Source of the DNA: Streptomyces venezuelae
GTDB lineage: Bacteria; Actinomycetota; Actinomycetes; Streptomycetales; Streptomycetaceae
Direction of reading: 5' to 3'
Assembly: GCF_008642355.1 (NCBI RefSeq)
Contig: NZ_CP029193.1
Coordinates: forward strand, 744,001-808,000
Length of the DNA: 64,000 nucleotides
Shown here: piece after piece, positions 8,347 to 25,117 of the stretch
How positions within the stretch are numbered: the stretch's first letter is position 1
Layout: every line of letters begins with the position of its first letter
Translations under genes and position numbers: made by a program
The notes under the pieces: generated by a model
Told to the model about the DNA's origin: nothing
The model's database searches: none
What the model saw: only the letters and a program-made list of their open reading frames with translations

Positions 8347-8865
8347 CTATGGCTGCCCGGCGAGTCCCGCCGTCTGCTGCTCCTCCTGCACGGTCGTCGC
8401 GCCGGTCGCCACCGCGCCCGCGCCGACGAGGACCGCCACGGCCGCCGCGAGGCCGGCCAGCATGAGACGCGGCCGCTGCCGCCCGTTTCGTACGGGCGGC
8501 AGCGGCCGTTCCGCGGTGGGTGCGGGCGGCGGCGGGCCCGCCGCGAGTTCCCTGCGGGCGGCCACCCAGCGCCGGGTGTCGTCGGCGTCGACGCCGCATG
8601 CGACGAGGTAGGCGACGAGGACGGCCTCGCGGGGCAGCCGGTCCTTGCGCAGCATGGTCGCCGCCGTCGAGTACGGCAGCACTTCGCCCGCCGCGGCCGC
8701 CGCACGCTCCACCTCCCGGTAGCTGAGGCCCGACCAGGCCTTGAGGCGGCGCAGCTCGGCCATGAAGGCGGCTTCCGCGGCGGGGCTCGCCGCGTGAGGC
8801 GGCGCGGGCGGTGTGAGCGGATCGGGCGATGTGGGTGGCGTGGGTGGTGACATCGGGGATGTCAT
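8347..8865 (-). CDS. Helix-turn-helix protein with C-terminal membrane helix
   Basis: A 172-residue protein. After a proline-rich leader (PTPPTSPDPLTPP), residues 30-90 hold a helical DNA-binding-like region with LKAWSGLSYREVERAAAAAG and TMLRKDRLPREAVLVAYLVACG. This is the variant XRE-type HTH found in Streptomyces membrane HTH proteins. RPRLMLAGLAAAVAVLVGAGAV forms one transmembrane segment, leaving about 20 residues outside. The start ATG has GGAGGAG upstream. Such proteins may tie a membrane or extracellular cue to transcription. No partner is evident here. It is convergent with the protease and divergent from the serine hydrolase. Confidence 0.8.
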   Translation of the reverse strand: MTSPMSPPTPPTSPDPLTPPAPPHAASPAAEAAFMAELRRLKAWSGLSYREVERAAAAAGEVLPYSTAATMLRKDRLPREAVLVAYLVACGVDADDTRRWVAARRELAAGPPPPAPTAERPLPPVRNGRQRPRLMLAGLAAAVAVLVGAGAVATGATTVQEEQQTAGLAGQP

Positions 8866-9009
8866 GTGGGGCTCCTCCGGTTCCGGCGTACTCCGCTGAC
8901 CTGCGCGTACGGAAACTCGCACACTGTCGAACAGCTCATCCGTCGAACGAGCGACACGGCATGAGTCAGCCTCGGCCTCGTATCTGTCGTCGCTGTCTTG
9001 GAGTCCCGT

Positions 9010-10158: not shown

Positions 10159-10194
10159 GGGCGGCAGCGGCGTGGGAATCGCGCGGGCGCCGCT

Positions 10195-11427
10195 CTACCC
10201 CAACGCCCCCAGCGGATCGTCGAGGACCGGCTGCCAGGCCAACTCCGCCGCCCCCACCAGGCTGTTGTGGTCCAGCGTGCACGCCAGGATCGGTACGCCG
10301 CCGCTCTGTCCCCACAGGCTCCGGTCCGCGACGACCGCGCGCAGGCGGTCCGGGTCCGCCTCCAGCAGGGCGCGGTGCAGGCCGCCCAGGATGATGCGGT
10401 CGGGGTTGAGGATGTTGACCAGGCCCGCGAGCCCGAGGCCGAGCCGGTCGATGAGCGCCTCGGCGGCGGAGCGCACGGACGGGTCGCCATAGGCGTCGCG
10501 GAGCAGCCCCCGGGCCTGCACGAGCAGTCCCTCGGGGCCGGGCTCGCGGCCCGCCGCCGTCAGGAAGGCCAGAGGGTCCGTCTCGACGTCCAGGCAGCCC
10601 CGGCTGCCGCAGTAACAGGGGCGCCCCTCGGAGTTCACCGTGAGGTGACCCACCTCCAGGGCGAGGCCCGAACTCCCGGTGTGCAGGCGGCCGTCGAGGA
10701 CGAGGGCGCCGCCCACGCCCCGGTGACCGGTCGCCACACAGAGGAGGTCCCGCGCGCCCCGGCCCGCGCCATGGCGGTGCTCGGCGATCGCCGCGAGGTT
10801 CACGTCGTTGCCCGCGAAGGCCGGCCCTTCGATGCCCGCCTCCCGTACGCACTGCGCGAAGATCTCGCTGACCGGCGCACCCGCGGGCCATGCCAGGTGC
10901 AGCGGGTTGAGCGCGGTGCCCTCCGGCTTGGCGACCGCGGACGGCACGGCGAGACCGGCGCCCACACACCGCCGCCCGGTCTCGCGCAGCAGTCGAGCGC
11001 CCGCGTCGACGACCGCCCCGAGGACCTGCGCGGGGTCGGCGTCGACGGTCTCACAACCCGGCGCCGTCGCCACGATGCCCCCGCCGAGCCCGACCAGCGC
11101 CGCCCTGAACCCGTCGGCGTGCACTTGCGCGGCGAGCGCGACAGGCCCCTCCTCCGCGACGGCGAGCCGGTGCGACGGCCTGCCCTGCGAACCCGCGGCC
11201 GCGCTCGGCTTCGCGTCGATCCGGATCAGCCCGAGCGCCTCGAGCTCGGCGGCGACCGCGCCCGCCGTGGCGCGGGTGACGCCCAGCTCCGCGGTGAGCA
11301 CGGCACGGGTGGGGGCGCGCCCGGTGTGGACCAGTTCGAGCGCGGGGCCCAGCGCGCCGCGCCCTCGCTCCAGGCGGGTACGCGTGGTCACTTCCCCCTC
11401 GGCACGGGGGTCAGCCTTGCCGTTCAT
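10195..11427 (-). CDS. ROK family transcriptional repressor
   Basis: A 410-residue protein. Residues 10-80 form a winged helix (APTRAVLTAELGVTRATAGAVAAELEALGLI), and the rest is a ROK sugar-binding domain with AGNDVNLAAIAEH, GHRGVGGALV and the zinc motif CYCGSRGCLD. The ATP-binding glycines of true ROK kinases are partly degenerate, so this is a regulator rather than a kinase. It sits divergently from an MFS transporter with about 190 bp between them, the usual ROK/permease arrangement. It probably represses that transporter until a sugar or sugar phosphate binds. Confidence 0.92.
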   Translation of the reverse strand: MNGKADPRAEGEVTTRTRLERGRGALGPALELVHTGRAPTRAVLTAELGVTRATAGAVAAELEALGLIRIDAKPSAAAGSQGRPSHRLAVAEEGPVALAAQVHADGFRAALVGLGGGIVATAPGCETVDADPAQVLGAVVDAGARLLRETGRRCVGAGLAVPSAVAKPEGTALNPLHLAWPAGAPVSEIFAQCVREAGIEGPAFAGNDVNLAAIAEHRHGAGRGARDLLCVATGHRGVGGALVLDGRLHTGSSGLALEVGHLTVNSEGRPCYCGSRGCLDVETDPLAFLTAAGREPGPEGLLVQARGLLRDAYGDPSVRSAAEALIDRLGLGLAGLVNILNPDRIILGGLHRALLEADPDRLRAVVADRSLWGQSGGVPILACTLDHNSLVGAAELAWQPVLDDPLGALG

Positions 11428-11612
11428 GAGGGCGAGTCTCCCATGATCCGTACACGGGCCCGCCGTTCGCTCGTCATCCGCACGTTCCTTCCCCGCACCG
11501 TCGCGTACGCCGCCGACACGCCGCGAATCCGTCCCCCGACCGGCCACGTCACCCTCGCGCACACCCCCACGCACTCGTCTTGTCCGCGCCCCGCGCGCAC
11601 CCCTACTCTGAC

Positions 11613-11633
11613 TTTGTGCCGCTACTAAACAAA
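11613..11633 (+). promoter_or_regulatory. Inverted repeat over the MFS start, possible ROK operator
   Basis: TTTGT at 11613-11617 and ACAAA at 11629-11633 form a small inverted repeat centred on 11623, overlapping the GTG start of the MFS gene. ROK repressors often bind TTT...AAA-type palindromes of about 20 bp. The arms are only 5 bp, so the assignment is tentative. Confidence 0.3.
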
Positions 11634-12980
11634 ATCGGGACCACAGCGCCGCGACCCTCCCCCACACCCCCCGGCCTCCGCCGCCTCCGCGTCATCCTCA
11701 CGATCTTCTTCGCTCTGGACGGATTCATCTTCGCCGGATGGGTCGTCCGCATCCCCGCCATCAAGGACCGGACCGGCGCGTCGGCCGGCGACCTCGGGCT
11801 CGCGCTGCTCGGGGTCTCCGTCGGCGCCGTGATCACGATGACGCTGACCGGACGGCTCTGCCGCCGCTTCGGCACCCACCCCGTGACCGTCGCCTGCGGC
11901 GTGCTGCTCTCCCTCAGCGTCGCCCTGCCTCCCCTGACGCACTCGGCACCGGCTCTGGGCGCGGTGCTGCTGGTCTTCGGAGCGGCGTACGGAGGCATCA
12001 ACGTCGCCTTCAACAGTGCCGCCGTCGACCTCGTGGCCGCGCTGCGCCGCCCGATCATGCCCAGCTTCCACGCGGCGTTCAGCCTCGGCGGCATGGCCGG
12101 CGCCGGGCTCGGCGGACTGATCGCGGGCTCCCTCTCCCCCACGCGCCACCTGCTCGGCCTCACCGTGATCGGCCTGCTCGTCACGGCCGTCGCCGGACGC
12201 GCCCTGCTGCGCATCGAGCCGCCCGCACCCGCGGAGGCCCGAGAGGCCCGAGACAGCCGGGACGGCCGAGACGCCCGAAACATCCGGGGCCCCCGGGACA
12301 CCCGGGACAGCCGCGACAGCAGGCCGGGCACGAACAGCCCCCCAATCCCGGACAGCACCTGCACATCCACCCCCGACAGCACCTGCGCACCCGCCCCGAA
12401 TGGCACCCGCACCCCTGACAGCACCCCCCGTCGCCCCGCCCCCCGCACCCGCCGCCTCGTCCTCGTCTTCGGTCTCATCGCGCTCTGCACCGCCTTCGGC
12501 GAGGGTGCGCTCGCCGACTGGGGCGCCCTGCACCTGGAACAAGACCTGGCCGCCCACCCGGGCGTCGCAGCCGCCAGCTACTCCTGCTTCGCCCTCGCCA
12601 TGACCATCGGCCGACTCAGCGGGACCACGCTGCTCGAACGCCTCGGCCAGACCCCGATACTCGTCACCGGCGGCGCCACGGCCGCCGCCGGCATGCTGCT
12701 TGGCGCGCTCGCGCCGACGGTCTGGCTCGCGCTCCTCGGCTTCGCCGTCACCGGTCTCGGGCTCGCCAACATCTTCCCCGTCGCGATCGAGCGCGCGGGC
12801 GCGCTGGCCGGGCCCGACGGGGTCGCCACCGCCTCCACCCTCGGCTACGGCGGCATGCTCCTCGGCCCGCCCGCCATCGGCTTCATGGCCGAGTGGTTCA
12901 CCCTGCCGATCGCCCTCACCAGCGTGGCCGTGCTCGCGGGTCTGGCCGCCGTGATCGGCTGCACGACGCGTCACCGGTAG
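11616..12980 (+). CDS. MFS transporter with arginine/aspartate-rich central loop
   Basis: A 454-residue membrane protein with two bundles of about six helices. LDGFIFAGWVVRIPAIKDRTGASAGDLGLALL near the N-terminus resembles the YbjJ-type branch of MFS. The loop between helices 6 and 7 is long and of low complexity: alternating Arg, Asp, Ser and Gly (RDSRDGRDAR and similar), then Pro-Asp-Ser-Thr-Cys copies. GTG 11616 is the only start close to the first helix, and there is no good ribosome binding site, so the mRNA may be leaderless. The adjacent divergent ROK repressor suggests a sugar-related substrate. Confidence 0.87.
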   Translation: MPLLNKIGTTAPRPSPTPPGLRRLRVILTIFFALDGFIFAGWVVRIPAIKDRTGASAGDLGLALLGVSVGAVITMTLTGRLCRRFGTHPVTVACGVLLSLSVALPPLTHSAPALGAVLLVFGAAYGGINVAFNSAAVDLVAALRRPIMPSFHAAFSLGGMAGAGLGGLIAGSLSPTRHLLGLTVIGLLVTAVAGRALLRIEPPAPAEAREARDSRDGRDARNIRGPRDTRDSRDSRPGTNSPPIPDSTCTSTPDSTCAPAPNGTRTPDSTPRRPAPRTRRLVLVFGLIALCTAFGEGALADWGALHLEQDLAAHPGVAAASYSCFALAMTIGRLSGTTLLERLGQTPILVTGGATAAAGMLLGALAPTVWLALLGFAVTGLGLANIFPVAIERAGALAGPDGVATASTLGYGGMLLGPPAIGFMAEWFTLPIALTSVAVLAGLAAVIGCTTRHR

Positions 12981-13687
12981 AAAGCCGCACCTCCGAGCGT
13001 CCTGGGCACGGAGTGACCCGAGAGCACCGCGCCAGGCGCCACGTCAACCCTCATATCCGGCCATCCGGCCGACCCTTGCCGGAACGCGGCGTCTGTAAAG
13101 CGGACGTCCGTTTCACCAGCACGCGCACTCCCGCCTTTCGTCGCGCGGCGCAACCGGATGCCGATCGAGTGCCCACACCGCATGCAGTCCGGCCAATTCC
13201 TGAGCAATGCATCGAAATTACTGTTTTACAAGCGGTCCCGTCAGGAATTAAGGTGAGCGCTCAACTAGAGACGGCTTGCTGGTATCGGCAATTCAAGGTC
13301 GGACTTTTCTGATCCGCACCGCTTCGCCCGATCGCAAGCCGGTCAGGTCAAAACGGGGGAGAGTGTAAGGGCATGTACGTGAAATTCCTTGAAGCGACTC
13401 GGCACACCGGATCACGCTGCTGAGCCCTTCTGGGCCCTCACCGCTGGCGACCGCTCGTCCGCATGTCACACCCCGTACGCCTGACATGCGCGACACGCAC
13501 CTCACGCACTTCGCGCACTTCACGCATTGCACGCGCGCCTCGGCACGTCTCGGCGCGTCTCACTCGTGACGAAACCCAGGCGTATCTGTACCGGTGACCT
13601 CGTTTCGTCGCGCCCTTTCCAATTTTTCTCATCCTGTTTGGCTGCTCTCGCGCCGCGCCGGTCTTCGACCGCGGGCCGATCTCTGCA
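12981..13687 (+). other. 707-bp intergenic region upstream of the biosynthetic operon
   Basis: No convincing gene is seen. Base composition is lower in GC than elsewhere (for example 13200-13320), as expected for a promoter region. It holds three 9-bp direct repeats (13503-13529) and related 10-bp repeats just after them. A 16-codon open frame starts at ATG 13373 and ends at TGA 13423, with a purine-rich tract (GGGGGAGAG) about 10 nt upstream. It could be a leader peptide, but nothing else supports it. Confidence 0.6.
13503..13529 (+). repeat. Three 9-bp direct repeats in the operon promoter region
   Basis: CACGCACTT, CGCGCACTT and CACGCATTG follow each other without gaps, and CGGCACGTCT/CGGCGCGTCT follow at 13541-13560. 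Tandem repeats at this spacing in front of a secondary-metabolite operon could be activator sites. SARP activators usually show 11-bp spacing, which these do not. Confidence 0.4.
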
Positions 13688-16600
13688 ATGACGCATTCCA
13701 AAATTCTATGGATTTCAGGTCAGAGAATGATGACGAACTTCACGGGGCCTCAGGAATTGTCCCTGCCATACATGCTGCGCGCGGCTGTTCTCGCCCAGCC
13801 CGACCGGACCGCCGTCTCCTGCGGCGCGGACAGACTGACTTTCCGGCAGCTCGGCGAGCGGAGCCAGAACCTGGCGGAACGCCTGCGGCACCTCGGCGTC
13901 GCGGCGGATGAACCCGTCGGCATCTTCCTGCCGCCCTCCGTCGACCTCATGGTGAGCGTCTGGGGCGTGCTCTGCGCGGGCGCCGCCTATCTGCCGCTGT
14001 CGCCCGAGTATCCGGACGAGCGCGTGCGCTACATGGTCGCGGACTCGCGGACCGCGGTCGTCCTGACGGACGCGTCCCTGTCCGACCGGCTGTCGGCCCT
14101 GACCCCACCGGAGACGCGGATCCTCACCGTGACCGGGGACGACAGTGCCACGGGAGCACATGTCCCCGGGCTCGTACGGGGCGACGACCTCGCGTACGTG
14201 ATCTACACCTCCGGGAGCACGGGCCGTCCCAAGGGCATCGGCATCGAGCACCGCGGCATCGTCCACCAGATGCGCTGGCTGGCCGACGAGCAGGGGCTCG
14301 ACCGGACGAAGACAGTGCTGCAGAAGACGCCGTTGAGTTTCGACGCGGCACAGTGGGAGATCCTCGCCCCGGCCTGCGGCGCGAGCGTGGTGATGAGCCG
14401 GCCGGGGGTCTATGCCGACCCCGGCGGGCTCCTCGACCTGGTCATGGCCAACGAGGTGACCACGCTCCAGGGCGTGCCGACGCTGCTGCGGGCGCTCGCC
14501 GACACGGGTCGGCTGGCCGACTGCACCTCGCTCACGCAGGTCTTCAGCGGTGGCGAGGCGCTCACCAGGAGTCTGGCGACCGAACTTCTCGACGCGCTGC
14601 CCGGCTGTGAACTGGTCAACCTGTACGGCCCGAGCGAGTGCACCATCAACGCCTCGTCGCACCGCGTGGACCGGCACGCCCTCCGGCACGGTCCGGAGCA
14701 CTTGTCCATCGGACGGCCCGTGCGCGGCATGCGCTTCCACATCCTCGACACCGACCGGCGGCCGGTCCCGTCGGGCGAGTCCGGCGAACTGTACATAGCG
14801 GGGCCCCAGTTGGCCCGCGGCTACCTGAACAAGCCGGTGCTGACGGCGGACCGGTTCGTCTCCGGCGGCGGCGAGGCCCGCGCCACCCGCCTTTACCGCA
14901 CCGGAGACCTGGCACGGTGGAACGCCGACGGCACGGTGCAGTTCCTCGGCCGCACCGACAGCCAGGTCAAGCTCCGCGGCTTCCGGGTCGAGCTGGACGA
15001 GATCAAGGTGTCCGTCGAGAAGCACGACTGGGTGAAGTCAGCCGCCGTACTGGTCCGTGACGATCCGCGGACCGGCGCCAACCTCGTCGCCTTCGTCGAA
15101 CTCGACCCGGAGCGAGCCGCGTTGATGGACCAGGGCAATCACGGCTCCCACCACCGGTCCAAGCAGAGCAAACTGCAGCTCAAGGCGCAGCTCGGCAATC
15201 TGGGGGTCCGCGAGGACGAGGGGCTGCCCGCCGTCGCGTTACCGGGGCGGGCCGCGACGGCCCGGCAGCGCCGCACCGTGTTCGCCCGCAAGACGTACCG
15301 CTTCTACGAAGGCGGCCCCGTCACCCGCGACGACCTCCTGGCCCTGCTCGCCCGGCCCGCCGAACGGACCGCCGCACCCCGCGACCCGGCCACCCTCACC
15401 CGGCACGAACTGGGTGCCCTGCTCCGCCACTTCGGCCAGTTCCCCAGCGGCGAACGCCTTCTGCCCAAGTACGGGTACGCCTCCCCCGGCTCCCTCTACG
15501 CCACCCAGCTGTACCTGGAGCTGTCCGGCATCGCCGGCCTGGAGGCGGGCCACTACTACTACCACCCGGTAGACCACCGCCTCACGCTGATCGCGCCCAC
15601 GCCCACACCCGCGCCCGGTACCGGCCGGTCGGCGTCCAGGATGCGGGTCCACTTCGTCGGGCGCCGCTCGGCCATCGAGCCGGTCTACCGGAACAACATC
15701 CGGGAGGTCCTCGGGTTCGAAGCGGGCCACATGGTCGGCCTGTTCGACCACGTCCTCCCCGAGTACGGCCTGCGCGTCACCGCCCGCGCGGACGAGCCCG
15801 GGGTCAAGGACGTGCTGCGCTGCCCGGACGAGGACCTCTACCTGGCCGCGTACGAGATCGGGACAGCCGCGGACCCGGCCGCGCCCCACCCGGTCGACCT
15901 GTACGTGCAGGCGCACCCCGGCCGGATCGCCGACCTCGCGGAGGGCCAGTACCGGTACCGCGACGGGGCTCTGGCGCGGGTCTCCGACGGACTGGTCCGC
16001 AAGCAGGACGTCATCGCCATCAACCAGGAGGTCTACACACGCGCCGCTTTCGGGGTCACCATGATCGGCCGGGCGGCAGAGCCCTGGCAGCGCTACACCG
16101 ACCTCGGCCGTGAACTGCAACGCCTCCAGATGAACGACCTGGGCCTGGGCCTCATGTCCTCCGGCTACAGCTCGGAGACCGGCCATCCGCTGGCATCGGC
16201 CCGGCGCATCACGGCCCTCCTCGGCGCGAACCCGGGCGACACGGCGTCCTATTTCGCCGTGGGCGGCCGGATCAGCGAGGAGCAGCGGCTGAGTGAGGGC
16301 ATGAAGGAGGACTCCGTCCACATGCGGGGTCCCGCCGAGATCCTCAAGGAGAACCTGGCCGAGACCCTGCCTCCGTACATGGTGCCCAACCGGGTCACCG
16401 TCCTCGACTCCTTCCCGCTCACCCCCAACGGCAAGATCGACCACCAGGCGCTGCGCGAGCTTGACCGGGCAGCGGTCGACGACGCCGACGCACCCGTCGT
16501 AGCGCCGCGCACGCCGACCGAGGAGGCGGTCGCCGCGCTGTGGCGCGAGGTGCTGCGCCAAGAGCGGGTCTCGATCCGGGACGACTTCTTCGCCGTCGGC

Positions 16601-17788
16601 GGCCATTCGCTGACCGCCGTCAACCTGGTCGGCCGGATCAACCGTGAGCTGGGCAGTTCCCTGCCGTTGCAGGTGCTGTTCGACGCGCCGACCATCGCGG
16701 GTCTCGCCCGGCTCGTCGACCGCACGCCGACCACCGCGCTGTCCCGGCTGGTGCGGCTCGGCGGCACGGACGACGGGCGGCCGGTCTTCTGCTGGCCCGG
16801 CCTCGGCGGCTACCCGATGAGCCTGCGGCTCCTGGCGGGACGGCTCGGCCTCACCCGGCCGTTCCTCGGCGTCCAGGCATACGGCATCAACCCGGGCGAG
16901 CGCGCGTACCCGACGTTCGAGGAGATGGTCGCCAAGGACATCGAACTGATCCGGCAGGCGCAGCCGAAGGGCCCGTACACGCTGTGGGGATACTCCTTCG
17001 GGGCCCGCGTCGCCTTCGCGGTGGCCCGGCGGCTGGAGCAGGCCGGTGAGCGCGTCGACGAGGTGATCCTCCTGGCGCCGGGCAAACCCCCCGTGGAGGT
17101 GCGGGACGGCGCACCCGGTGAGGCGACGGTCGACTTCACCGACCCCGCCTTCGTGGCGATCCTCTACTCCGTCTTCGCGGGGACCGTCCAGCGGTCCGCG
17201 ATCGCCGAATGCCTCGCGTCGACGCACGACGAGGAGTCCTTCATCGCGTGCCTCTGCGACCGGTTCGAGCATCTGGACCGCGAGCTGGTGCGCAGGATCG
17301 TCGGCGTGGTCCGGCTGACGTTCCTGTTCGAGTACGGCCCCGAGGACATGGCGGGGCAACGGCTCGCGGCGCCGGTCACGGTGTTCCGGGCCGCGGGCGA
17401 CCAGGACTCCTTCATCGATCACGGCCATGGCCCCGCGCTGTCGGCCAGGCCTCCCCGGGTCAACCGGCTGCAGGCCGACCACTACGCACTGCTGCGCGCG
17501 CACGGAGTGGACGAACTCGTCACCGCCCTGCGCGGCGCGCGCCTCACCCGAAAGGTCATCCCGGTGCCCCACGTCAACATCAAGCACTTCCCGGACAACC
17601 TCGAAGAGGCCAAGATCTCAGCGCTCGTGGACGCGATCACGAGCGCGGTCAGGACCGCCTTCTCCGTCGACGAGGGGGTGGTGTCCATCGCCCTGGAGCC
17701 CGTGGCCCAGGACGTGTGGAACGAGCGGGTCTACATCCCGGAGATCGTCGAAGATCCCGGCCACCTCGTCCAGAGTCCGGACTACTGA
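13688..17788 (+). CDS. Indigoidine-synthetase-like NRPS (A-Ox-T-TE) with C-terminal tautomerase domain
   Basis: A 1366-residue single-module enzyme. Adenylation motifs: YVIYTSGSTGRPKG (A3), FDAAQWE (A4), NLYGPSEC (A5), YRTGDLARW (A7), KLRGFRVEL (A8, about 430) and NGKID (A10, about 917). An FMN oxidase domain sits inside the A domain (about 535-860), recognised by YRFYEGG, LLPKYGYASPGSLYATQ and GHYYYHP. The hand-aligned specificity code is DAWQFGLINK, as I recall for glutamine-activating indigoidine synthetases. The carrier serine is Ser974 (GGHSL). The thioesterase has GYSFG (Ser1103) and His1265. Residues 1290-1366 match PptA-type tautomerases (PHVNIKHFP), an addition beyond the roughly 1283-residue BpsA/IndC layout. 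A TTA codon at residue 518 suggests bldA control. ATGs at 13727/13730 are alternative starts. Confidence 0.93.
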   Translation: MTHSKILWISGQRMMTNFTGPQELSLPYMLRAAVLAQPDRTAVSCGADRLTFRQLGERSQNLAERLRHLGVAADEPVGIFLPPSVDLMVSVWGVLCAGAAYLPLSPEYPDERVRYMVADSRTAVVLTDASLSDRLSALTPPETRILTVTGDDSATGAHVPGLVRGDDLAYVIYTSGSTGRPKGIGIEHRGIVHQMRWLADEQGLDRTKTVLQKTPLSFDAAQWEILAPACGASVVMSRPGVYADPGGLLDLVMANEVTTLQGVPTLLRALADTGRLADCTSLTQVFSGGEALTRSLATELLDALPGCELVNLYGPSECTINASSHRVDRHALRHGPEHLSIGRPVRGMRFHILDTDRRPVPSGESGELYIAGPQLARGYLNKPVLTADRFVSGGGEARATRLYRTGDLARWNADGTVQFLGRTDSQVKLRGFRVELDEIKVSVEKHDWVKSAAVLVRDDPRTGANLVAFVELDPERAALMDQGNHGSHHRSKQSKLQLKAQLGNLGVREDEGLPAVALPGRAATARQRRTVFARKTYRFYEGGPVTRDDLLALLARPAERTAAPRDPATLTRHELGALLRHFGQFPSGERLLPKYGYASPGSLYATQLYLELSGIAGLEAGHYYYHPVDHRLTLIAPTPTPAPGTGRSASRMRVHFVGRRSAIEPVYRNNIREVLGFEAGHMVGLFDHVLPEYGLRVTARADEPGVKDVLRCPDEDLYLAAYEIGTAADPAAPHPVDLYVQAHPGRIADLAEGQYRYRDGALARVSDGLVRKQDVIAINQEVYTRAAFGVTMIGRAAEPWQRYTDLGRELQRLQMNDLGLGLMSSGYSSETGHPLASARRITALLGANPGDTASYFAVGGRISEEQRLSEGMKEDSVHMRGPAEILKENLAETLPPYMVPNRVTVLDSFPLTPNGKIDHQALRELDRAAVDDADAPVVAPRTPTEEAVAALWREVLRQERVSIRDDFFAVGGHSLTAVNLVGRINRELGSSLPLQVLFDAPTIAGLARLVDRTPTTALSRLVRLGGTDDGRPVFCWPGLGGYPMSLRLLAGRLGLTRPFLGVQAYGINPGERAYPTFEEMVAKDIELIRQAQPKGPYTLWGYSFGARVAFAVARRLEQAGERVDEVILLAPGKPPVEVRDGAPGEATVDFTDPAFVAILYSVFAGTVQRSAIAECLASTHDEESFIACLCDRFEHLDRELVRRIVGVVRLTFLFEYGPEDMAGQRLAAPVTVFRAAGDQDSFIDHGHGPALSARPPRVNRLQADHYALLRAHGVDELVTALRGARLTRKVIPVPHVNIKHFPDNLEEAKISALVDAITSAVRTAFSVDEGVVSIALEPVAQDVWNERVYIPEIVEDPGHLVQSPDY
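17550..17788 (+). other. Candidate internal start giving a free tautomerase
   Basis: Within the synthetase gene, GAAAGG at 17550-17555 stands 8 nt before GTG 17564, which is followed directly by CCC (Pro). Initiation there would give a 74-residue protein beginning Met-Pro-His-Val-Asn-Ile-Lys, matching the start of the PptA tautomerase. Removal of Met would expose the N-terminal proline that this superfamily uses as catalyst. In the full-length protein this proline (Pro1294) is internal. The signal is plausible but unproven. Confidence 0.4.
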
Positions 17789-17801
17789 GGGGGCTGGTCC
17801 C

Positions 17802-18410
17802 ATGCGCAGGACACTCACCAGGGCGCGCGAGGACCTCTCCATGATCGTGGAGCGGGACCCGTCGATCCACACCCGCGCGCAGGCACTGCTGCATCCCGCC
17901 CTGCCGGCCCTGTGGGCCCACCGGGCGGCGCACCTCCTCCACACCCGCGGCCGACGCCGACTCGCCCGGACCATCGCCTATGTCGCGCGGGCAGCGACCG
18001 GCGGCGTCGAGATCCATCCGGGCGCGCGGCTCGGCCGGCGCGTGTTCATCGACCACGGGGCCGCCGTCGTCATCGGGGAGACCGCCGAGATCGGCGACGA
18101 CGTCACGATCTTCCACCAGGTCACCCTGGGCGCGGTCGGCTGGTGGCGGGACGGGCGGCGCGCGCCGGGTGCCCGGCGCCACCCCGTCGTCGGCGACCGG
18201 GTGGTGCTCGGCACCAACGCGATCGTCCTCGGCCCTGTCACCGTCGGCGACGACGCGCTGATTGGTGCGGGGGCGCTGGTCCTGGGCGATGTGCCGCCCC
18301 GGGCCCGCGTGGCGGCCCCCGTGGCCGCGGTCACCGTACCGCTGTCGCCCGCGGAACGCGCCGAGTCGGAGCAGCTGCTCCGCACCCTGGCCACCACCGG
18401 GTGCTGGTGA
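17802..18410 (+). CDS. Serine O-acetyltransferase (CysE-like)
   Basis: A 202-residue protein. The N-terminal helices contain PSIHTRAQALLHPALPALWAHRAAHLLH, the usual CysE approach, followed by a left-handed beta-helix: GVEIHPGARLGRRVFIDHG, VVIGETAEIGDDVTIFHQVTLG and PVVGDRVVLGTNAIVLGPVTVGDDALIGAGALVLGDV. The DHG and H(Q)VTLG residues of the active site are kept. It makes O-acetyl-L-serine from serine and acetyl-CoA. It lies 13 bp after the synthetase gene with GAGGGGG upstream, and just before a cysteine-synthase-type gene, so it most likely supplies O-acetylserine to the pathway. A later ATG at 17841 is a possible alternative start. Confidence 0.92.
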   Translation: MRRTLTRAREDLSMIVERDPSIHTRAQALLHPALPALWAHRAAHLLHTRGRRRLARTIAYVARAATGGVEIHPGARLGRRVFIDHGAAVVIGETAEIGDDVTIFHQVTLGAVGWWRDGRRAPGARRHPVVGDRVVLGTNAIVLGPVTVGDDALIGAGALVLGDVPPRARVAAPVAAVTVPLSPAERAESEQLLRTLATTGCW

Positions 18411-18490
18411 CGGCCCGTGCACCCGGAACTCATCCATCCAGCACCGTACTTGACCCCGGCCATGAGCCGGTCTGCCGACGGAGGCACAGA

Positions 18491-20707
18491 ATGATCCATG
18501 TCGGAGTCCTGGAGAGCAATCTCTCCGGTTCCGGTTTCGAGGGCCTGCAGATCATCAAGGAACTCGACTGCCGCGTCACCTTCTTCACCCGCGACCTGGA
18601 GCGCTACCTCGCGGTCCCGGGCGGGCCCGCCTACTTCGAGCGTTACGTCGACGACGTCGTCCGGTGCGAGACGAACGTCTTCGAGGAGCTCCTGCCGCAC
18701 GTGCACGCCGCCGGGGCCGAGCAGCCCTTCGACGCGTTCCTGACCCTGGCCGAGTACGACGTGGTCGTGGCCGCCGAGGTGGCCGCCCACCTCGGTCTGC
18801 CCACCGTCGGCGTCGACGGTGTCGCCACCGCACGCAACAAGGCGCTGATGCGCCGCCGCTGCGCCGAACTCGGCGTGCCCATACCGGAGTTCCGCGCCGT
18901 ACGGACGCCGGGCGAGGCGGCGGTGGCCGCCGTGGAGGTCGGCCTGCCCTGTGTGGTCAAGCCGGCCGACGAGACGAGCAGCGCGGACGTCCGCCTCGTC
19001 GACACGGCGGAGGAGGCCGCCGAACACGTCGCCCTGATCCGGTCCCGCGCGGAGAACACGCGCGGCCAGGCCCGCCACGACGAGTTGCTGGTCGAGGAGT
19101 ACATGAGCGGTCCCGAGGTCAGCGTGGAGGTGCTCGCCGACGGCGACCGGTACGAGGTGTTCGGCGTGACCGACAAGTCCGTCGTCGGCCTCGGCCACTT
19201 CGTCGAGCTGGCGCACACCTTCCCCTCCCGACTGCCCGAGCCGCTCGTGCGCGCCTGCGGCGACCTGGCCGTGCAGGCGCTGCGGGCGGTCGGCTTCGAC
19301 CTGGGCATGGCGCACGTCGAGGTGAAACTGACCGCGTCCGGGCCCAAGCTCGTCGAGATCAACCCGCGGCCCGCCGGCGGAAAGATCACGTATCTGGTCG
19401 ACCGGGCCCTGGGCGTCAAGTCCCTGGAGCTGGTCGCCCGGCAGTACCTCGGTCAGCCGCTGCCCGACCCGGTGCTGCCGCGGCATCCGTCCGGGGGCGC
19501 CGCGATCCGCTATCTGACGGCGCGGCCCGGCCGGGTGGTGTCGGTCGCCGGCCGGGAGCGCGCCGCCGCGCTGCCGGGCGTCGAGGAGGTCGTCATCAAG
19601 CCCCGACCGGGCTCTGTGGTGCGGGAGTTACGACGCAACGGCGACCGGTCCGGTCATGTGCTCGCGGTGGCGGAGACGGCCGAGCTGGCGGCGCGCACGG
19701 CGGAGGCGGCCGTCCAGGAGATCGGGATCCGTACCGAGCCGGTCGCCCGGCGTCCGGTCGCGGACTCCCTCGTCGACCTCGTCGGCGGCACGCCGCTGCT
19801 GCGGCTGCCGTTGGACCGGATCGTGGACGGCGCCCCCGCGGACGCCGAGGTGCTCGCGAAGCTGGAGCTGTTCAACCCCTGGTCCAGCAGCAAGGACAGG
19901 GCGGCCCTCGCCATGTTGCGGGGCGCCGAGAAGCGGGGGCTGCTCGTGCCGGGCTCCGGCACCGTGATCGAGGCGACGTCCGGCAACACCGGTATCTCGC
20001 TGGCCGCCCTGGCCGCGGACCGCGGTTACCGGTGCGTCATCGTGCTGCCGGACAACGCGACCCCGGAACGGGTGGCGATGCTGCGGTCGCTCGGCGCCGA
20101 AGTGGTACGGACCCCGCACTCCGGCGGCTATCGCGCGGCGGTCGACCTGGCCGAGGAGCTCCATCGGCGCACGCCCGGCTCCTGGTTCTGCCGCCAGCAC
20201 GACAACCCGGACAACACGCGGGCGCACTACGAGACCACGGGCCCCGAGATCTGGAGCGACGTCGGCGGACGCGTCGACGTGTTCGTCTGCGGAGTGGGAA
20301 CCGGCGGTACGCTCAGCGGCGCGGGGCGCTATCTCCGCGAGAGTCACCCCGCTGTGCGGATCGTGGCGGTGGAGCCCGCGGGCTCGCCGCTGCTGTCCGG
20401 CGGTGAGCCCGGCGCGCACGGCATCCCGGGCTTCAACGGCGGCTTCATCGCGCCGACCACGCAGCAGAGCCTCATCGACGAGGTGATCACGGTGTCCGAC
20501 GCGGACGCCCTGGACACCACCCGGCGACTCGCACGGCACGCCGGCCTGATGACCGGTGTCTCGGGCGGCGCGGTCGTCCACGCGTGCGGCGTGCTCGCCG
20601 CCCGGCCCGAGTACCGGGGCCGACGCATCGTGACACTGCTGCCGGACACCGGTGAGCGGTATCTCGGCGTGCTCGCCCACGAGAAGACCCCGGGCGGTGT
20701 CCGATGA
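18491..20707 (+). CDS. ATP-grasp / cysteine-synthase-like PLP enzyme fusion
   Basis: A 738-residue fusion. Residues 1-400 are an ATP-grasp ligase: LPCVVKPADETSSADV (ATP lysine), LLVEEYMSGPEVSVEV and LVEINPRPAGG, the intact Mg-binding Glu/Asn. Residues 425-738 are a fold-type II PLP enzyme of the cysteine synthase/CBS group: DLVGGTPLLRL, NPWSSSKDR (PLP lysine Lys468), ATSGNTGIS (substrate loop), CGVGTGGTLSG (phosphate loop) and LPDTGERYL. The likely reaction pair is beta-replacement on O-acetylserine by an unknown nucleophile, then ATP-dependent ligation of the amino acid. A TTA codon occurs at residue 380. ATG 18491 has GGAGG at 6 nt. The 3' end overlaps the next gene as ATGA. Confidence 0.92.
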   Translation: MIHVGVLESNLSGSGFEGLQIIKELDCRVTFFTRDLERYLAVPGGPAYFERYVDDVVRCETNVFEELLPHVHAAGAEQPFDAFLTLAEYDVVVAAEVAAHLGLPTVGVDGVATARNKALMRRRCAELGVPIPEFRAVRTPGEAAVAAVEVGLPCVVKPADETSSADVRLVDTAEEAAEHVALIRSRAENTRGQARHDELLVEEYMSGPEVSVEVLADGDRYEVFGVTDKSVVGLGHFVELAHTFPSRLPEPLVRACGDLAVQALRAVGFDLGMAHVEVKLTASGPKLVEINPRPAGGKITYLVDRALGVKSLELVARQYLGQPLPDPVLPRHPSGGAAIRYLTARPGRVVSVAGRERAAALPGVEEVVIKPRPGSVVRELRRNGDRSGHVLAVAETAELAARTAEAAVQEIGIRTEPVARRPVADSLVDLVGGTPLLRLPLDRIVDGAPADAEVLAKLELFNPWSSSKDRAALAMLRGAEKRGLLVPGSGTVIEATSGNTGISLAALAADRGYRCVIVLPDNATPERVAMLRSLGAEVVRTPHSGGYRAAVDLAEELHRRTPGSWFCRQHDNPDNTRAHYETTGPEIWSDVGGRVDVFVCGVGTGGTLSGAGRYLRESHPAVRIVAVEPAGSPLLSGGEPGAHGIPGFNGGFIAPTTQQSLIDEVITVSDADALDTTRRLARHAGLMTGVSGGAVVHACGVLAARPEYRGRRIVTLLPDTGERYLGVLAHEKTPGGVR

Positions 20708-23235
20708 CCGCTCCCCCGCCCCTGACGGACTGGGACACCGGTGAGCGGCCGCGGCTGCTGATGGTCATGCCCTACCGGCAGCTCGTGCGCAAGGCGCGGG
20801 CCGAAGGGTTCTGGGTCGGCGCCGTCTGGGATCCGCGCCTGCAGACACCCGGCTACCTCGACGACGTGCGCGCCGCCGCGGACCTGTTCGTGACCGTGGA
20901 CTTCGCGGACCCGGAGCTGCTGCGGCGCACCCTGCGCGACGTGGCCACGGAACACCGCGCGTCGGCGATCCTCCACCTCGGCAGGGAGGAGACGATGGTG
21001 ACGGCCCACGAGGTGGCCGAGGAACTGCGAGCCGAGGTCAACCCGACGGCGGCGATCCGCTTCCTCTCCGACAAGCACGCGATGCGTGAGCTGCTCGCGC
21101 GGCGTGAACTGTCCCCCGTGGTGTACGAGTCGGCGCCTTCCCGCCGCGAGGTTCCATCCGCGGTGGAGCGGGTCGGTCTTCCGGCGGTCGTCAAACCGGT
21201 CGCGCTCGCGGGCAGCCGAGGCGTGTTCCTGTGGCGGGAGCCGCGGGACCTGGCGGCCTGGACGGCGCTCGTGGACACGTACGGCTATGAGGGCCCTTTC
21301 CTGGTCGAGGAGTATCTGCGCGGTCCGGAGTACAGCGTGGAGACGCTGAGCCAGGACGGCGTGCACCAGGTCGTCGGCATCACGGAGAAGGTGCTCGGGC
21401 CGCCACCGCTGTTCGTGGAGGTGGGGCACGTCCATCCGGCGCCGCTGCCTCCGGAGCGCGCGCAAGCCGTCGAGGAGCTCGCGGTCCGCTTCCTGACCGT
21501 GTGCGGGTACCGGTTCGGGCCCGCGCACACCGAGGTGATCTGGACCGAGCGGGGGCCGCGCGTCGTCGAGTCGCAGGCCCGGCTCGGCGGCGACCGCATC
21601 CCGCGGCTCATCGAGCTGGCCGGTGGTCTCGACGTCGAGCGGGCGATCTTCGCGGGTCTGGCGAGGGCACCGGCCGAGGTGCCGGAGCCGACGGCGACGG
21701 CGGCGGTGCGGTTCTTCACCTTCCCGCCGGGGCGCGTCGACGCGATCCGCGGCCTGCAGCGACTCCAACGCCAGTCGTACGTGGATGAGTTGACGCTGCG
21801 GCTGCGTCCCGGCGACACCGTCGACGAGGTGCGTGACTCCAAGGCCCGCCAAGGGCACGTCATCGTCTCGGGCGCCACGCCCGAGCAGGCCCGCAGCCGC
21901 CTCGCGGAGGCGCTCGCCACCCTTGAGGTCGTCGTCGACGGGACGCCGGTACGCGCGGACGGCCGGGCCGTGAAGTCACCGGCCGCGCCGGGTGCCGACG
22001 CACAGGTCGTGTTCGTCGGCTACAACGCGGCCTACCTGCGTGCCATCGACGGGAGTGTTCCCGACGGGTCGGTCGTGGTCCTCGAAGAGCCCGACATCAT
22101 CCGCAAGCGGGACCTGCGGGACGCGGCGGCGCGCTTCGGCTGCCTCGACCGGATCGTGCCCGCGCACTACCAGCAGTCCGCCGGGGCCCTGGACCTGGCG
22201 GCCGACCTGGAGGCCGCGCGCCCGGTGGCGGCCGTCGTGCCGGGTCTGGAGTACGCGGTGCCCGCGGCGGCCGCGCTCGCCGAGAAGCTGGGGCTGCCCG
22301 GCGCGACCGAACCCGCCGCGCGGGCGCTGCGGGACAAGGTCCGGCTGCGCGAGGTGTGCGACGCGGGCGGCGTCCGCGGCCCGCGCTGGCGCGAGGTGCA
22401 CGGGCCCGAGGACATCCTCGCCTTCGCGGGCGGAGGGCCCGTGGTGGTCAAGCCGGCCAACCGGCAGGCCAGCGTCGGCGTGCAGCTCCTCGACTCCGTC
22501 GACGCGGCCACCGCCGCGGCGGCGTGGGAACGCACGTCGTCCGCGGCCGAGTACGAGCAGGTCCCCGACCGGCACCTGGCGTGGCGTTTCCTCGCCGAAG
22601 AGCGCCTGCGCGGGCCCGAGTACAGCGTCGAGGCACTGGTACGCCAGGGCGAGATCATCTTCCACAACGTCACCGCCAAGACGGTGATCCCGGGACCGTA
22701 CCCGGTGGAGCTCGGCCATCTGCTGCCCGCTCCGCTCGACCGGGACACCCGGGCGGCCTTCGAGGAGGCCATGCGGTTGCTCGTCGCCGCGACCGGCTAC
22801 CGCACCGGCATCCTGCACGCCGAGTGGATCCTCACCGCGTCCGGACCGGCGCTGGTGGAGTGCGCGGGACGCTGTCCCGGCGACTACCTGATCGACCTGA
22901 ACGACCTGGCGTACGGCACGCGGATCAGGCTGGCCCTCATCGACCTGCTGGCGGGCCGTCCGGTCACTCTCCCCCGTACCGCGCAACGCACCTCCGCCAT
23001 CCGGTTCCTGGCCGCCGACCCCGGCACCGTCACGGCGGTCGAAGGGGCGGACGCGGCACGGGCACTGCCCGGCGTACGGACGGTGGAGATCGACGTCGAG
23101 CCGGGTCAGGAGGTGCGGCCCTGGGCGTCCTCGTGGGACCGCGCCGGACACGTGATCGCGACGGGACCCGACGCGGACAGCGCGCGCCGAAGCGTCCTCG
23201 ACGCGGACGCGGCCATCCACATCACCACGGAGTGA
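20704..23235 (+). CDS. Tandem ATP-grasp domain protein (two ligase units)
   Basis: An 843-residue protein with two consecutive ATP-grasp units. Unit 1 (about 15-415): GLPAVVKPVALAGSRGV, LVEEYLRGPEYSVE and VVESQARLGGDR. Unit 2 (about 430-843): GPVVVKPANRQASVGV, AEERLRGPEYSVEAL and LVECAGRCPGDY. Both keep the ATP lysine and the acidic metal ligand, but the Asn of the usual E-x-N metal motif is Gln in unit 1 and Ala in unit 2. One or both units may be specialised or structural. The family joins a carboxylate to an amine through an acyl phosphate, as in L-amino acid ligases. It is translationally coupled to the fusion protein upstream. Confidence 0.9.
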   Translation: MTAPPPLTDWDTGERPRLLMVMPYRQLVRKARAEGFWVGAVWDPRLQTPGYLDDVRAAADLFVTVDFADPELLRRTLRDVATEHRASAILHLGREETMVTAHEVAEELRAEVNPTAAIRFLSDKHAMRELLARRELSPVVYESAPSRREVPSAVERVGLPAVVKPVALAGSRGVFLWREPRDLAAWTALVDTYGYEGPFLVEEYLRGPEYSVETLSQDGVHQVVGITEKVLGPPPLFVEVGHVHPAPLPPERAQAVEELAVRFLTVCGYRFGPAHTEVIWTERGPRVVESQARLGGDRIPRLIELAGGLDVERAIFAGLARAPAEVPEPTATAAVRFFTFPPGRVDAIRGLQRLQRQSYVDELTLRLRPGDTVDEVRDSKARQGHVIVSGATPEQARSRLAEALATLEVVVDGTPVRADGRAVKSPAAPGADAQVVFVGYNAAYLRAIDGSVPDGSVVVLEEPDIIRKRDLRDAAARFGCLDRIVPAHYQQSAGALDLAADLEAARPVAAVVPGLEYAVPAAAALAEKLGLPGATEPAARALRDKVRLREVCDAGGVRGPRWREVHGPEDILAFAGGGPVVVKPANRQASVGVQLLDSVDAATAAAAWERTSSAAEYEQVPDRHLAWRFLAEERLRGPEYSVEALVRQGEIIFHNVTAKTVIPGPYPVELGHLLPAPLDRDTRAAFEEAMRLLVAATGYRTGILHAEWILTASGPALVECAGRCPGDYLIDLNDLAYGTRIRLALIDLLAGRPVTLPRTAQRTSAIRFLAADPGTVTAVEGADAARALPGVRTVEIDVEPGQEVRPWASSWDRAGHVIATGPDADSARRSVLDADAAIHITTE

Positions 23236-23243
23236 GGAAGCAG

Positions 23244-24503
23244 ATGTCTGTTCTCCGGCAGCGCGCCCGCGGATGGCGGCGGTCCGTCCCCGGCGGACGG
23301 GTCGGCCTGCGGCTCTCCGTGATGGCGATGATCGACGCCGTCGGCACGGGTGCCTTCCTGGCCGTCTCCGTGCCGTTCATCACGCGGTCCGTCGGACTCT
23401 CCGTGGGCGAGCTGAGCCTCGGCCTGACCCTGTCCGCCGCTGTCGCGCTGGCCACGGCCGTCCCCCTCGGCATCCTCGCCGACCGGATCGGCCCGAAGAA
23501 GGTCCTGATCGGCGTCGGCCTGTGGCGCTGCGGCTGCTTCGTCCTCTATCCGTTCGTCCAGAACCTGTGGCAGTTCCTGACGGTGGTCTGCCTGCTCGGC
23601 CTCGTCGACAAGGCGGCGGCACCGATGGAACAGGCCCTGGTGGGGCAGGTGACGGCGACCGACGACCGGGTCAAGGTCGTCGCGGTGCTGCGGTCGCTGC
23701 GCAACGTCGGCTTCACCGTCGGTGCCCTCCTCGGCGGTGTCGGCCTGCTGATCGACACCCGGCCCGGTTACGCCGCGATCCTCCTGCTCAACGCCGCCTC
23801 GTTCGCCGTACTCGCGCTGCTCGCCCACCGCCTTCCGGTGCTCACCACCCCGGCGAAGAGCCTGCGGCGCCGCTTCTCCGTCGACGCGCTGCGGGACAGA
23901 CCGTTCCTGTCGTTCACCGGCATCAACGCGGTGCTCACGATGCACATGACGCTCCTGAGCATCGGCATCCCGCTGTGGATCGTCGAGCACACACAGGCCC
24001 CGGCCGCGGTGATCTCACCCCTGGTGGCGGTCAACACGGTGCTCGCGGTGGCGCTGCAGGTGCGCGCGAGCCGCGGCACCGAGACCATCGCCGGTTCCGC
24101 GCGGGCGCTCGTGCGGGCGGGCATCGCCCTCGCCGTGTGCTGCCTGCTCCTGATCGCGGCACCGAAGCCGCCCGTCCTCGCGGCGGTCGGTGTGCTGCTT
24201 CTCGCCATGGTCGCGCTGACCGCGGGCGAGCTGTTCCAGTCCGCCGGGGGCTGGGGCGGTTCGTATCTGCTCGCGGCGCCCGGCCAGGAAGGCGTCTATC
24301 TGTCGGTCTTCTGGCTCGGCGTCGCCGTCCAGCAGATCGCGGCACCGCTCGTGGTCGGCCTCGTCATCACGGCAGGCACCACCGGGTGGGCCGTGCTGGC
24401 CGCGCTGTTCGCCGTCTGCGGCCTCGCCGCGCCAATGATCGGCCGGTGGGCGCAGGCCCGCGCCTCCATGAACCCGCAACTCGGTCAACCCGTCAGCTCA
24501 TGA
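23244..24503 (+). CDS. MFS transporter, probable exporter of the cluster product
   Basis: A 419-residue membrane protein with about twelve helices. The first helix is VGLRLSVMAMIDAVGTGAFLAVSVPF, and the motif A region after helix 2 reads GILADRIGPKKVLIGVGLWR. It begins 8 bp after the tandem ATP-grasp gene with GAGGAAG upstream and lies inside the same operon, so export of or self-resistance to the peptide-like product is the natural role. The C-terminal tail after the last helix is short (RWAQARASMNPQLGQPVSS). Nothing in the sequence points to a specific substrate. Confidence 0.9.
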   Translation: MSVLRQRARGWRRSVPGGRVGLRLSVMAMIDAVGTGAFLAVSVPFITRSVGLSVGELSLGLTLSAAVALATAVPLGILADRIGPKKVLIGVGLWRCGCFVLYPFVQNLWQFLTVVCLLGLVDKAAAPMEQALVGQVTATDDRVKVVAVLRSLRNVGFTVGALLGGVGLLIDTRPGYAAILLLNAASFAVLALLAHRLPVLTTPAKSLRRRFSVDALRDRPFLSFTGINAVLTMHMTLLSIGIPLWIVEHTQAPAAVISPLVAVNTVLAVALQVRASRGTETIAGSARALVRAGIALAVCCLLLIAAPKPPVLAAVGVLLLAMVALTAGELFQSAGGWGGSYLLAAPGQEGVYLSVFWLGVAVQQIAAPLVVGLVITAGTTGWAVLAALFAVCGLAAPMIGRWAQARASMNPQLGQPVSS

Positions 24504-24518
24504 TTCCAGGAGGGATCC

Positions 24519-24971
24519 ATGTCCGTTCCGCTGTACGTCCCCGCAGGTGAAGGCGAATACGTCGACATCCGGGACACGAAGAGGACGTATCTGAAACTCA
24601 CCACGCCCGACTCCGACGGGGAGTTCGGCTTCTTCGAGCACCACATGGCTCCGGAGGCGAAGGGCGCGGCCCCGCACATCCACAAGCAGTCCACGGAGAT
24701 GTTCTACGTGGTCAAGGGCGAGATCGAGTTCACCATCGGGGACCGCAAGGTGGTCGGTGAGCCGGGCGCGTTCGCGTACGTCCCCAAGGGGGAGCCGCAC
24801 GGCTTCACCAACCGGGGCACCGAGGACGCCACCCTGTTGATCATGTTCTACCCGATCTACGACCGTGAGGACTACTTCCGCGGACTGGGCCGGCTGACGG
24901 CCGACGGGCGCAATCCCAGCATGGAGGAGCTGCGCGAACACATGGCGAAGTACGACCAGTTCATGGTCTGA
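24519..24971 (+). CDS. Cupin-domain protein
   Basis: A 150-residue small cupin. Motif 1 is APHIHKQSTEMFYVVKGEIEF with His and Glu ligands, and motif 2 is PGAFAYVPKGEPHGFTNRG with the third histidine, so a metal site (two to three His plus Glu) is intact. It is the last gene of the operon, 15 bp after the MFS gene with AGGAGGG upstream. Small cupins in biosynthetic operons act as isomerases, cyclases, dioxygenases or binding proteins. Which applies here cannot be told. Candidates are maturation of the heterocycle or removal of a toxic intermediate. Confidence 0.88.
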   Translation: MSVPLYVPAGEGEYVDIRDTKRTYLKLTTPDSDGEFGFFEHHMAPEAKGAAPHIHKQSTEMFYVVKGEIEFTIGDRKVVGEPGAFAYVPKGEPHGFTNRGTEDATLLIMFYPIYDREDYFRGLGRLTADGRNPSMEELREHMAKYDQFMV

Positions 24972-24979
24972 GACGGGGG

Positions 24980-25027
24980 CGGACACGGGGCCGGGACCGG
25001 CATCGGTCGGTCCCGGCCCCGTGTCCG
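24980..25027 (+). terminator. Strong intrinsic terminator after the cupin gene
   Basis: CGGACACGGGGCCGGGACCG at 24980-24999 pairs perfectly with 25008-25027 (20 bp) around an 8-nt loop, followed by CTTTCC. It ends the biosynthetic operon. Confidence 0.9.
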
Positions 25028-25117
25028 CTTTCCCGGTGGCCACGGAGCGTACGCAATCGGTCCCAGATCGCCCGGAGGTTCCGGTTCCAGGGCACTCCAT
25101 CCGACACAATCGCCCGC

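Follow-up and report, generated by a model that had tools for sequence, protein, structure and literature searches.

A 64,000-nucleotide stretch of the Streptomyces venezuelae genome (NZ_CP029193.1, positions 744,001 to 808,000; hereafter the window) carries a dedicated biosynthetic operon at 13688-24971, in which a glutamine-activating nonribosomal peptide synthetase (NRPS) stands together with a serine O-acetyltransferase (CysE), an ATP-grasp ligase fused to a cysteine-synthase-type (CysK) enzyme, a tandem ATP-grasp ligase, an exporter and a cupin. The product is probably an undescribed amino-acid or peptide antimetabolite. That the CysK-type enzyme attaches an alanine unit directly to the glutamine-derived ring, via carbon or nitrogen, seems to us evenly balanced. 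We put forward more tentatively that it does for amino acids what a C-nucleoside synthase does for sugars, forming a C-C bond between aminoacrylate and aminopyridinedione, so that operons of this kind would make heteroaryl-alanine antimetabolites and the ATP-grasp ligases of the window would dress them as a peptide. An initial annotation, made from the sequence letters alone, had recognised no described cluster with this gene set, and indeed no paper on such a cluster was found in the open-access full-text literature searched (MIBiG was outside the search). The product class proposed there, a beta-substituted alanine combined with an aminopyridinedione, is one that we likewise infer.

Organisation and conservation of the operon

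Open reading frames together with Pfam and NCBIfam matches bear out six co-directional forward-strand genes, placed and ordered as first annotated, and name them as adenylation-carrier-thioesterase NRPS, CysE/EpsC, ATP-grasp/LAL_C2 with PALP/CysK, double ATP-grasp/LAL_C2, major facilitator superfamily (MFS) protein and cupin. The NRPS gene (13688-17788) encodes adenylation, oxidase, thiolation, thioesterase and tautomerase domains (A-Ox-T-TE-tautomerase) with a glutamine code; its start may instead be the ATG at 13727, and the database prediction for the window is the shorter form (P0007, 1353 aa). It is followed by cysE (17802-18410; above the cut-off for EpsC, below it for TIGR01172 cysE) and by the fusion gene (18491-20707), whose product consists of an ATP-grasp part (residues 1 to ~415) and a CysK part (~418-738) that is pyridoxal-phosphate (PLP)-dependent and has altered pocket motifs. 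The gene of the tandem ATP-grasp ligase, with two paralogous LAL-type units (20704-23235), overlaps the fusion gene by 4 bp, and genes for an MFS exporter (most likely extent 23244-24503) and a Cupin_2 protein (24519-24971) complete the series. A perfect 21-bp inverted repeat (24979-25028, forward strand) is the probable transcript end. Of the perfect terminator claimed at first, the hairpin 3' of the cupin gene stands, with a fold z-score of -8.75, but the T run is short and a consensus terminator scan did not list it.

A search for related loci returned 31, of which 15 (L001-L015) encode the fusion; the remainder (L016-L031) are partial, distant matches outside the analysis. The 15 fusion loci belong to 14 named Streptomyces and one "Actinobacteria bacterium OV320". 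The co-occurrence check recommended with the initial annotation gave NRPS, CysE, fusion and a further ATP-grasp in the same order in all of them, and the operon is thus not a chance arrangement. An MFS gene is present in 14 and a cupin gene in 13, L002 being cut by its contig and L007 lacking a cupin match. In 13 of the 15, convergent genes for a deaminase and a luciferase-like monooxygenase stand directly after the cupin on the other strand (L007 has neither and L002 is cut). The idea that the six genes are the entire cluster was set aside on this account. The deaminase and monooxygenase were not found in the window, where the hairpin stands at the junction (24972-25117) at which relatives carry them and where the S. 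atriruber locus (L014) has ~1.4 kb more; elsewhere in the same genome, identity reaches 42% for the best relative of the deaminase and 49% for that of the monooxygenase. The genes flanking the operon recur, bar single weak matches, only in the syntenic S. atriruber locus, and some close relatives of the cluster have flanks in common among themselves.

The synthetase and the CysK-type enzyme

Activation and oxidation of glutamine by the NRPS, as first proposed, are supported by the A-domain code and the Ox motifs. Read by alignment at the GrsA code positions, DAWQFGLINK is invariant among the 63 close homologues (P0007-P0069, a set to which the window NRPS belongs) and recurs in 49 of 57 that are more distant, counts that rest on the best 120 of 7990 scored matches. 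The oxidase domain, located between A and T, has no Pfam match and matched TIGR03605 (SagB type) below the cut-off. Its region shares the motifs KYGYASPGSLYA, VYRNNI and G(L/F)MSSGYSS with BpsA-type proteins, and the A-Ox-T-TE order and glutamine code place the enzyme in the BpsA/IndC type. A tautomerase-like domain (PRK01271/PptA, below the cut-off), absent from the initial annotation, forms the C-terminal end. The T-domain serine motif reads GGHS in at least 61 of the 63 close family members and mostly GGNS in other homologues. The "blue-pigment synthetase" of S. clavuligerus is 57% identical to the window NRPS and has motifs in common with it, while homologues of 71-74% identity come also from Kitasatospora and Actinacidiphila among the matches listed. 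The minimycin NRPS is of the same kind, and its Tau domain is reported to convert the released ring into the form that MinB accepts (PMC8724604).

The CysK part of the fusion retains the PLP lysine, the TSGNTG substrate loop and the GTGGT phosphate loop in 16 of 16 fusions, which makes it a member of the CysK type. Among solved relatives, cysteine synthases match the window domain best, at about 300 bits (top 301); O-ureidoserine synthase, at 227 bits, scores no lower than enterobacterial CysK (about 220 bits), so the score alone cannot separate a D-cycloserine-type from a cysteine-type enzyme. Compared with three solved CysKs, QH[DE]N stands in place of QFxN and IPG[FL][NT]GG in place of IQGIGAG in 55 of 55 rows (16 fusions and 39 stand-alone relatives), a clade for which we coin the name CysK-a, and the methionine of the TMS loop has become alanine in 53 of the 55. 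We take the changed positions to line the nucleophile side of the pocket. The possibility that the enzyme is simply the strain's own cysteine synthase was set aside on two counts, the different motifs of CysK-a and the presence of further CysK/CBS-like genes in the genome. A further group of six rows, CysK-b (SSGSTG, QDxN), falls among CysK-a in the tree; TauD, HpcH aldolase, AsnB, PrpF, acyl-CoA-dehydrogenase and dihydroorotase-like genes are found in its loci (L073, L076-L080, L190), where another CysK gene often lies nearby. L190 is assigned by annotation and layout only.

Linkage of NRPS and CysK-a across genomes

Two genome surveys addressed how often the gene sets meet, one of 392 Streptomyces genomes (Ox NRPS at E<=1e-40, fusion query at E<=1e-80) and one of 293 genomes of the order, partly overlapping the first (fusion query at E<=1e-90). 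In the first, an Ox NRPS was present in 62 genomes, a match to the fusion query in 53 and both in 25; in 20 of these 25 the two lie less than 15 kb apart, with a spacing of 2.6-14.3 kb. The 66 Ox places counted were obtained from 68 listed rows after the pieces of two split genes had been joined, and among the 64 places matched by the CysK query, CysK-a membership is established for the linked ones. Matches in the 53 genomes were full length in 8, ATP-grasp plus CysK in 4, ATP-grasp only in 1 and CysK only in 40. The second survey gave 46 genomes with an Ox NRPS, 45 with a fusion-query match, 21 with both and 16 with linkage. Together, the surveys contain 29 linked genomes, 15 of them without a fusion, and the full-length fusion occurs in 14 genomes, all of one genus (8 of 392 and 9 of 293, union of both searches).

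Linkage takes several architectures (genes in unannotated loci were called with a home-made GC-position caller). A minimal one is NRPS-EamA-CysE-CysK-cupin in L103, likewise in L184 with a separate tautomerase; another is NRPS-EamA-CysE-CysK-Questin_oxidase in L100 and in S. clavuligerus (L189), where Questin_oxidase is the Pfam family formerly called DUF4243. Four loci (L070, L113, L185, L186) combine NRPS and CysK with ATP-grasp and MFS genes. Eight others (L062-L065, L115, L116, L182, L187) hold an aminodeoxychorismate-synthase-like gene, several ATP-grasps and CysK-a, with the Ox NRPS ~13-14 kb off; prephenate-dehydrogenase-like and AMP-ligase genes are also found in these clusters.

These four operons bear on the role of CysK-a. 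ATP-grasp genes were not found in L100, L103, L184 and L189 (stretches of 19-29 kb, searched by BLAST with four ATP-grasp queries and, for the larger genes left unassigned, by Pfam), and these loci thus offer no ligase that could join two separate products. If the serine and glutamine units share one compound there, CysK-a is the only joining enzyme in sight. L189 lies on the megaplasmid of S. clavuligerus ATCC 27064 (8842-16196), and its NRPS is the database "blue-pigment synthetase" (1174 of 1175 residues identical, the sole difference being the start codon chosen by the caller). Its neighbours are EamA, CysE, a CysK-a 65% identical to that of the window and a Questin_oxidase 75% identical to that of L100. 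Judged by gene content, this operon would read like minimycin with MinB swapped for CysE and CysK, and the product of the "blue-pigment synthetase" may not be indigoidine. Since the operon sits in a well-known strain, S. clavuligerus can serve to test the CysK-a idea.

Exchange of partners with IndA

The IndA/MinB C-glycosynthase (PF04227) is the commonest identified partner of NRPS genes that are not linked to CysK, occurring in 19 of 46 such loci (L128-L173; at most 18.5 kb examined around each gene, several of the stretches being truncated where a contig ends). A UPRT gene accompanies it in 18 of the 19, and many also have a PRPP synthetase or old-yellow-enzyme gene. Among the non-fusion CysK-linked loci, an IndA match was found in 0 of 12 (Fisher p 0.005 against 19 of 46, with kinship ignored); as three of the eight fusion genomes of the first survey (G052, G324 and G355) lie outside the IndA analysis, the non-fusion comparison is the one relied on. 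Likewise, IndA was not found in L184-L187 or L189, and tblastn (1e-12, half coverage) returned no IndA match in positions 5001-40000 of the window or in L001-L015, where the Questin_oxidase/DUF4243 enzyme (MinC) had no match either. A plain indigoidine or minimycin cluster was set aside for lack of any IndA, UPRT, PRPP-synthetase or Questin_oxidase match.

In a tree of 74 NRPS rows, CysK-linked and IndA-linked rows are interleaved, the 12 CysK-linked rows needing 5 label changes and the IndA-linked rows 8 (a quick method with SH-aLRT only, which includes the stand-alone A domain L080 and omits L171 and L182-L190). L070 and L177 fall inside an IndA-rich group and L100 beside another. Questin_oxidase is present in five IndA loci, 56-60% identical to that of L100, and stands beside CysK in L100 and L189; a DUF4243 domain is half of MinC, which is reported to remodel the ring in minimycin (PMC8724604). 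The proposal of the initial annotation that serine-derived and glutamine-derived units converge gains support from the repeated physical linkage of the gene sets and from the interchange with IndA. The simplest reading of these gene contents would be that a single ring has two possible captors, ribose phosphate through IndA and aminoacrylate through CysK-a.

Other BpsA-like NRPS loci have different surroundings. In one clade (L137, L144, L151, L152, L157, L158, L160, L161, L163, L165-L167, L170), IndA and CysK were not found, and S-adenosylhomocysteine hydrolase and B12 methionine synthase genes adjoin the NRPS in most loci. In L130, L132, L135, L149, L153 and L162, an arylmalonate-decarboxylase-like protein (PF17645, tested in L130) stands beside the NRPS together with a stand-alone tautomerase and an MFS gene, which might be another fate of the ring.

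Ligases, cupin and proposed pathway

Both the fusion and the tandem protein contain the LAL C-terminal domain (PF18603) above the cut-off and belong to the LAL branch of the ATP-grasp enzymes. The two units of the tandem protein are 33% identical, and all three ligase units are mutually 33-37% identical. The ATP-grasp motif reads ExNxR in 16 of 16 fusion ligases, ExQxR in 16 of 16 and ExAxR in 15 of 15 of the respective tandem units. A single gene encodes the tandem enzyme in the window and in S. atriruber (L014); another 13 loci have it as two genes, and L002 is cut. A reverse-strand ORF of 402 aa, perhaps a transposon insertion, lies between the two ATP-grasp genes in the S. phaeofaciens cluster (L005:13526-14734). 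The fusion of ATP-grasp to CysK suggests that the ligase receives the newly made amino acid directly. Cupin homologues (44%) occur also in the minimal operons L103 and L184.

In the proposed pathway, the NRPS would load L-glutamine, oxidise and cyclise it and release a 3-amino-pyridinedione or amino-dihydroxypyridine ring, the monomer of indigoidine, which the tautomerase domain may turn into its nucleophilic form. CysE would produce O-acetylserine, which CysK-a would convert to the PLP-aminoacrylate; the ring itself, and not sulfide, would then be added as the nucleophile, yielding a heteroaryl-alanine. The attacking atom would probably be the ring carbon that attacks ribose in minimycin (giving a C-C bond), less probably the ring nitrogen. 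The ATP-grasp unit fused to CysK-a would take up the heteroaryl-alanine, the two further ATP-grasp domains would complete a di- to tetrapeptide, the cupin might tailor the scaffold and the MFS protein would export the product, which is likely to be an antimetabolite of the amino-acid or peptide kind. The sequence itself establishes the domain identities, the glutamine code, the retained catalytic motifs, the conserved operon, the linkage counts and the exchange of partners; ring capture and all later steps, product included, are inferred. If carbon is indeed the attacking atom, which we suggest with reserve, the compound could be described as minimycin with alanine in place of ribose, and its peptide form might ensure uptake by competitors. 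There is a precedent in mimosine synthase, a cysteine-synthase-type enzyme that is reported to join a pyridone to O-acetylserine (PMC12157136).

Alternative explanations

Several observations weigh against direct attachment of alanine to the ring. The CysK tree rejects the NRPS-linked CysK-a enzymes as one clade, which weakens the best explanation. In twelve loci (L069, L071, L104, L106-L109, L111, L112, L117-L119), CysE, CysK-a and cupin occur in a stretch that contains no NRPS; genes for EamA, AsnB, PrpF, acyl-CoA dehydrogenase and amidohydrolase are present in 11 of the twelve, the exception being L118, which is cut short. A further 15 CysK-a rows have no linked NRPS. CysK-a, therefore, does not need the glutamine-derived ring, although one may conjecture that the AsnB gene set of the NRPS-free loci is a second supplier of a ring nucleophile, which would fit direct attachment. 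Of the 16 linked loci without the fusion, six (L062, L064, L113, L182, L186, L187) showed no CysE in the vicinity of CysK, L187 ending just after CysK. Within 7 kb of the NRPS in the IndA locus L136 lie two ATP-grasp-like genes and the gene of a distant PLP enzyme, the latter of the PALP family (PF00291) and 25% identical to CysK-a (L136:991-4633, a locus of the IndA/Questin_oxidase type); in G309 (L168, IndA) a CysK match sits right at the end of a different contig, which makes an IndA-NRPS-CysK linkage possible; and the IndA locus L172 adjoins an aminodeoxychorismate-synthase-like gene, as in the CysK-linked type. On a plasmid of Priestia aryabhattai (L188; NZ_CP064098.1, 4056-17868), an IndA-type glycosidase, CysK and ATP-grasp occur together. 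This locus holds AsnB, PrpF, acyl-CoA dehydrogenase, a dihydroorotase-like gene, cupin, the pseudouridine-glycosidase/IndA-type gene (30% identical to Streptomyces IndA), FMN reductase, MFS, an ATP-grasp (48% to the fusion's half) with an adjacent CysK (54%), CysE and dihydroorotate dehydrogenase. Its CysK keeps the ordinary QF and MS letters, yet has LNGG in common with CysK-a, and the dihydroorotate dehydrogenase may serve self-resistance, which would point to a product resembling orotate.

The operon can be explained in other ways. CysE and CysK-a might make a separate small beta-substituted alanine that an ATP-grasp ligase links by an amide to the amino group of the ring, a somewhat unlikely explanation that nevertheless accounts for the cassettes of CysE, CysK-a and ATP-grasp without an NRPS, for a fusion well suited to making and attaching one residue, and for the ATP-grasp/CysK pair beside the IndA-type gene in Priestia, with its QF and MS letters. 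Cysteine, 2,3-diaminopropionate, cyanoalanine or a similar compound would, on this doubtful account, be the candidate residue, and the amide would also block dimerisation to indigoidine. It fits poorly with L100, L103, L184 and L189, which pair the NRPS with CysE and CysK in the absence of any detected ATP-grasp, with the QH[DE]N and GG motifs changed throughout the 55 CysK-a rows, and with the failure to find IndA in the CysK-linked NRPS loci examined. Two separate products, indigoidine or a close pigment from the NRPS and an unrelated peptide from the CysE, CysK and ATP-grasp enzymes, are in our view improbable; the shared operon would then reflect co-regulation or co-transfer only. The NRPS does keep the indigoidine-synthetase motifs checked, but linkage in 29 genomes in several different gene arrangements, the distinct NRPS clade with GGHS for GGNS and the interchange with IndA all speak against two products. 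We give similarly little credence to a sulfur pathway, in which CysK-a would make cysteine for a conjugate with the glutamine-derived ring or for a redox-protective thiol. Cysteine is a possible product of CysK-a, given that its best PDB matches are ordinary cysteine synthases and that the O-acetylserine and PLP motifs are intact; however, the pocket motifs differ from those of the three solved CysKs, the operon contains no sulfur-supply gene and the genome has other CysK/CBS-like genes.

Comparison with known systems

The findings suggest that a single reactive ring made from glutamine can pass to either of two interchangeable capture enzymes, one using a sugar, as in the known C-nucleosides, and one using a serine-derived unit, a capture not described in the literature searched. 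If this is true, clusters that are likely labelled indigoidine-like (in the 29 surveyed genomes and S. clavuligerus) would be sources of new amino-acid antimetabolites, and alanine could be attached to heterocycles with a PLP enzyme.

The D-cycloserine cluster, offered as a parallel in the initial annotation, resembles the operon in using O-acetylserine, a CysK fold and an ATP-grasp ligase, but the acetyltransferase of the window is of the CysE and not of the DcsE type. In that pathway, DcsB is an arginase, DcsC a racemase, DcsD a CysK-like enzyme, DcsE an acetyltransferase and DcsG an ATP-grasp ligase. Arginase-, haem-protein-, racemase- and homoserine-acetyltransferase-like (DcsE-type) partners were not found among the six genes and eleven Pfam-scanned neighbours, which leaves the parallel weak. 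A D-cycloserine-like pathway was set aside on these grounds; the O-ureidoserine synthase score speaks neither for nor against it.

The minimycin/indigoidine system is closer. It is reported to consist of MinA (NRPS), MinB (C-glycosynthase) and MinC (HAD plus DUF4243), and MinA has the same NRPS architecture, tautomerase included (PMC8724604), and a glutamine code. Moreover, the related operons L100 and L189 also carry a Questin_oxidase/DUF4243 enzyme. The difference lies in the capture step, for the window has no IndA/MinB match and in its place CysE and CysK-a, followed by three ATP-grasp domains. The LAL-type dipeptide ligases such as BacD share the LAL_C2 domain, and the best PDB matches of the ligase units include BL00235 and BacD. 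Of the three predicted peptide ligases of the window, however, the first is joined to CysK and the other two form a tandem protein. Mimosine synthase and the other plant beta-substituted alanine synthases are likewise of the CysK type and are reported to add a pyridone or another nucleophile to O-acetylserine (PMC12157136). Those are plant enzymes, whereas CysK-a is a bacterial clade borne on operons, with a ring that is probably supplied by the NRPS.

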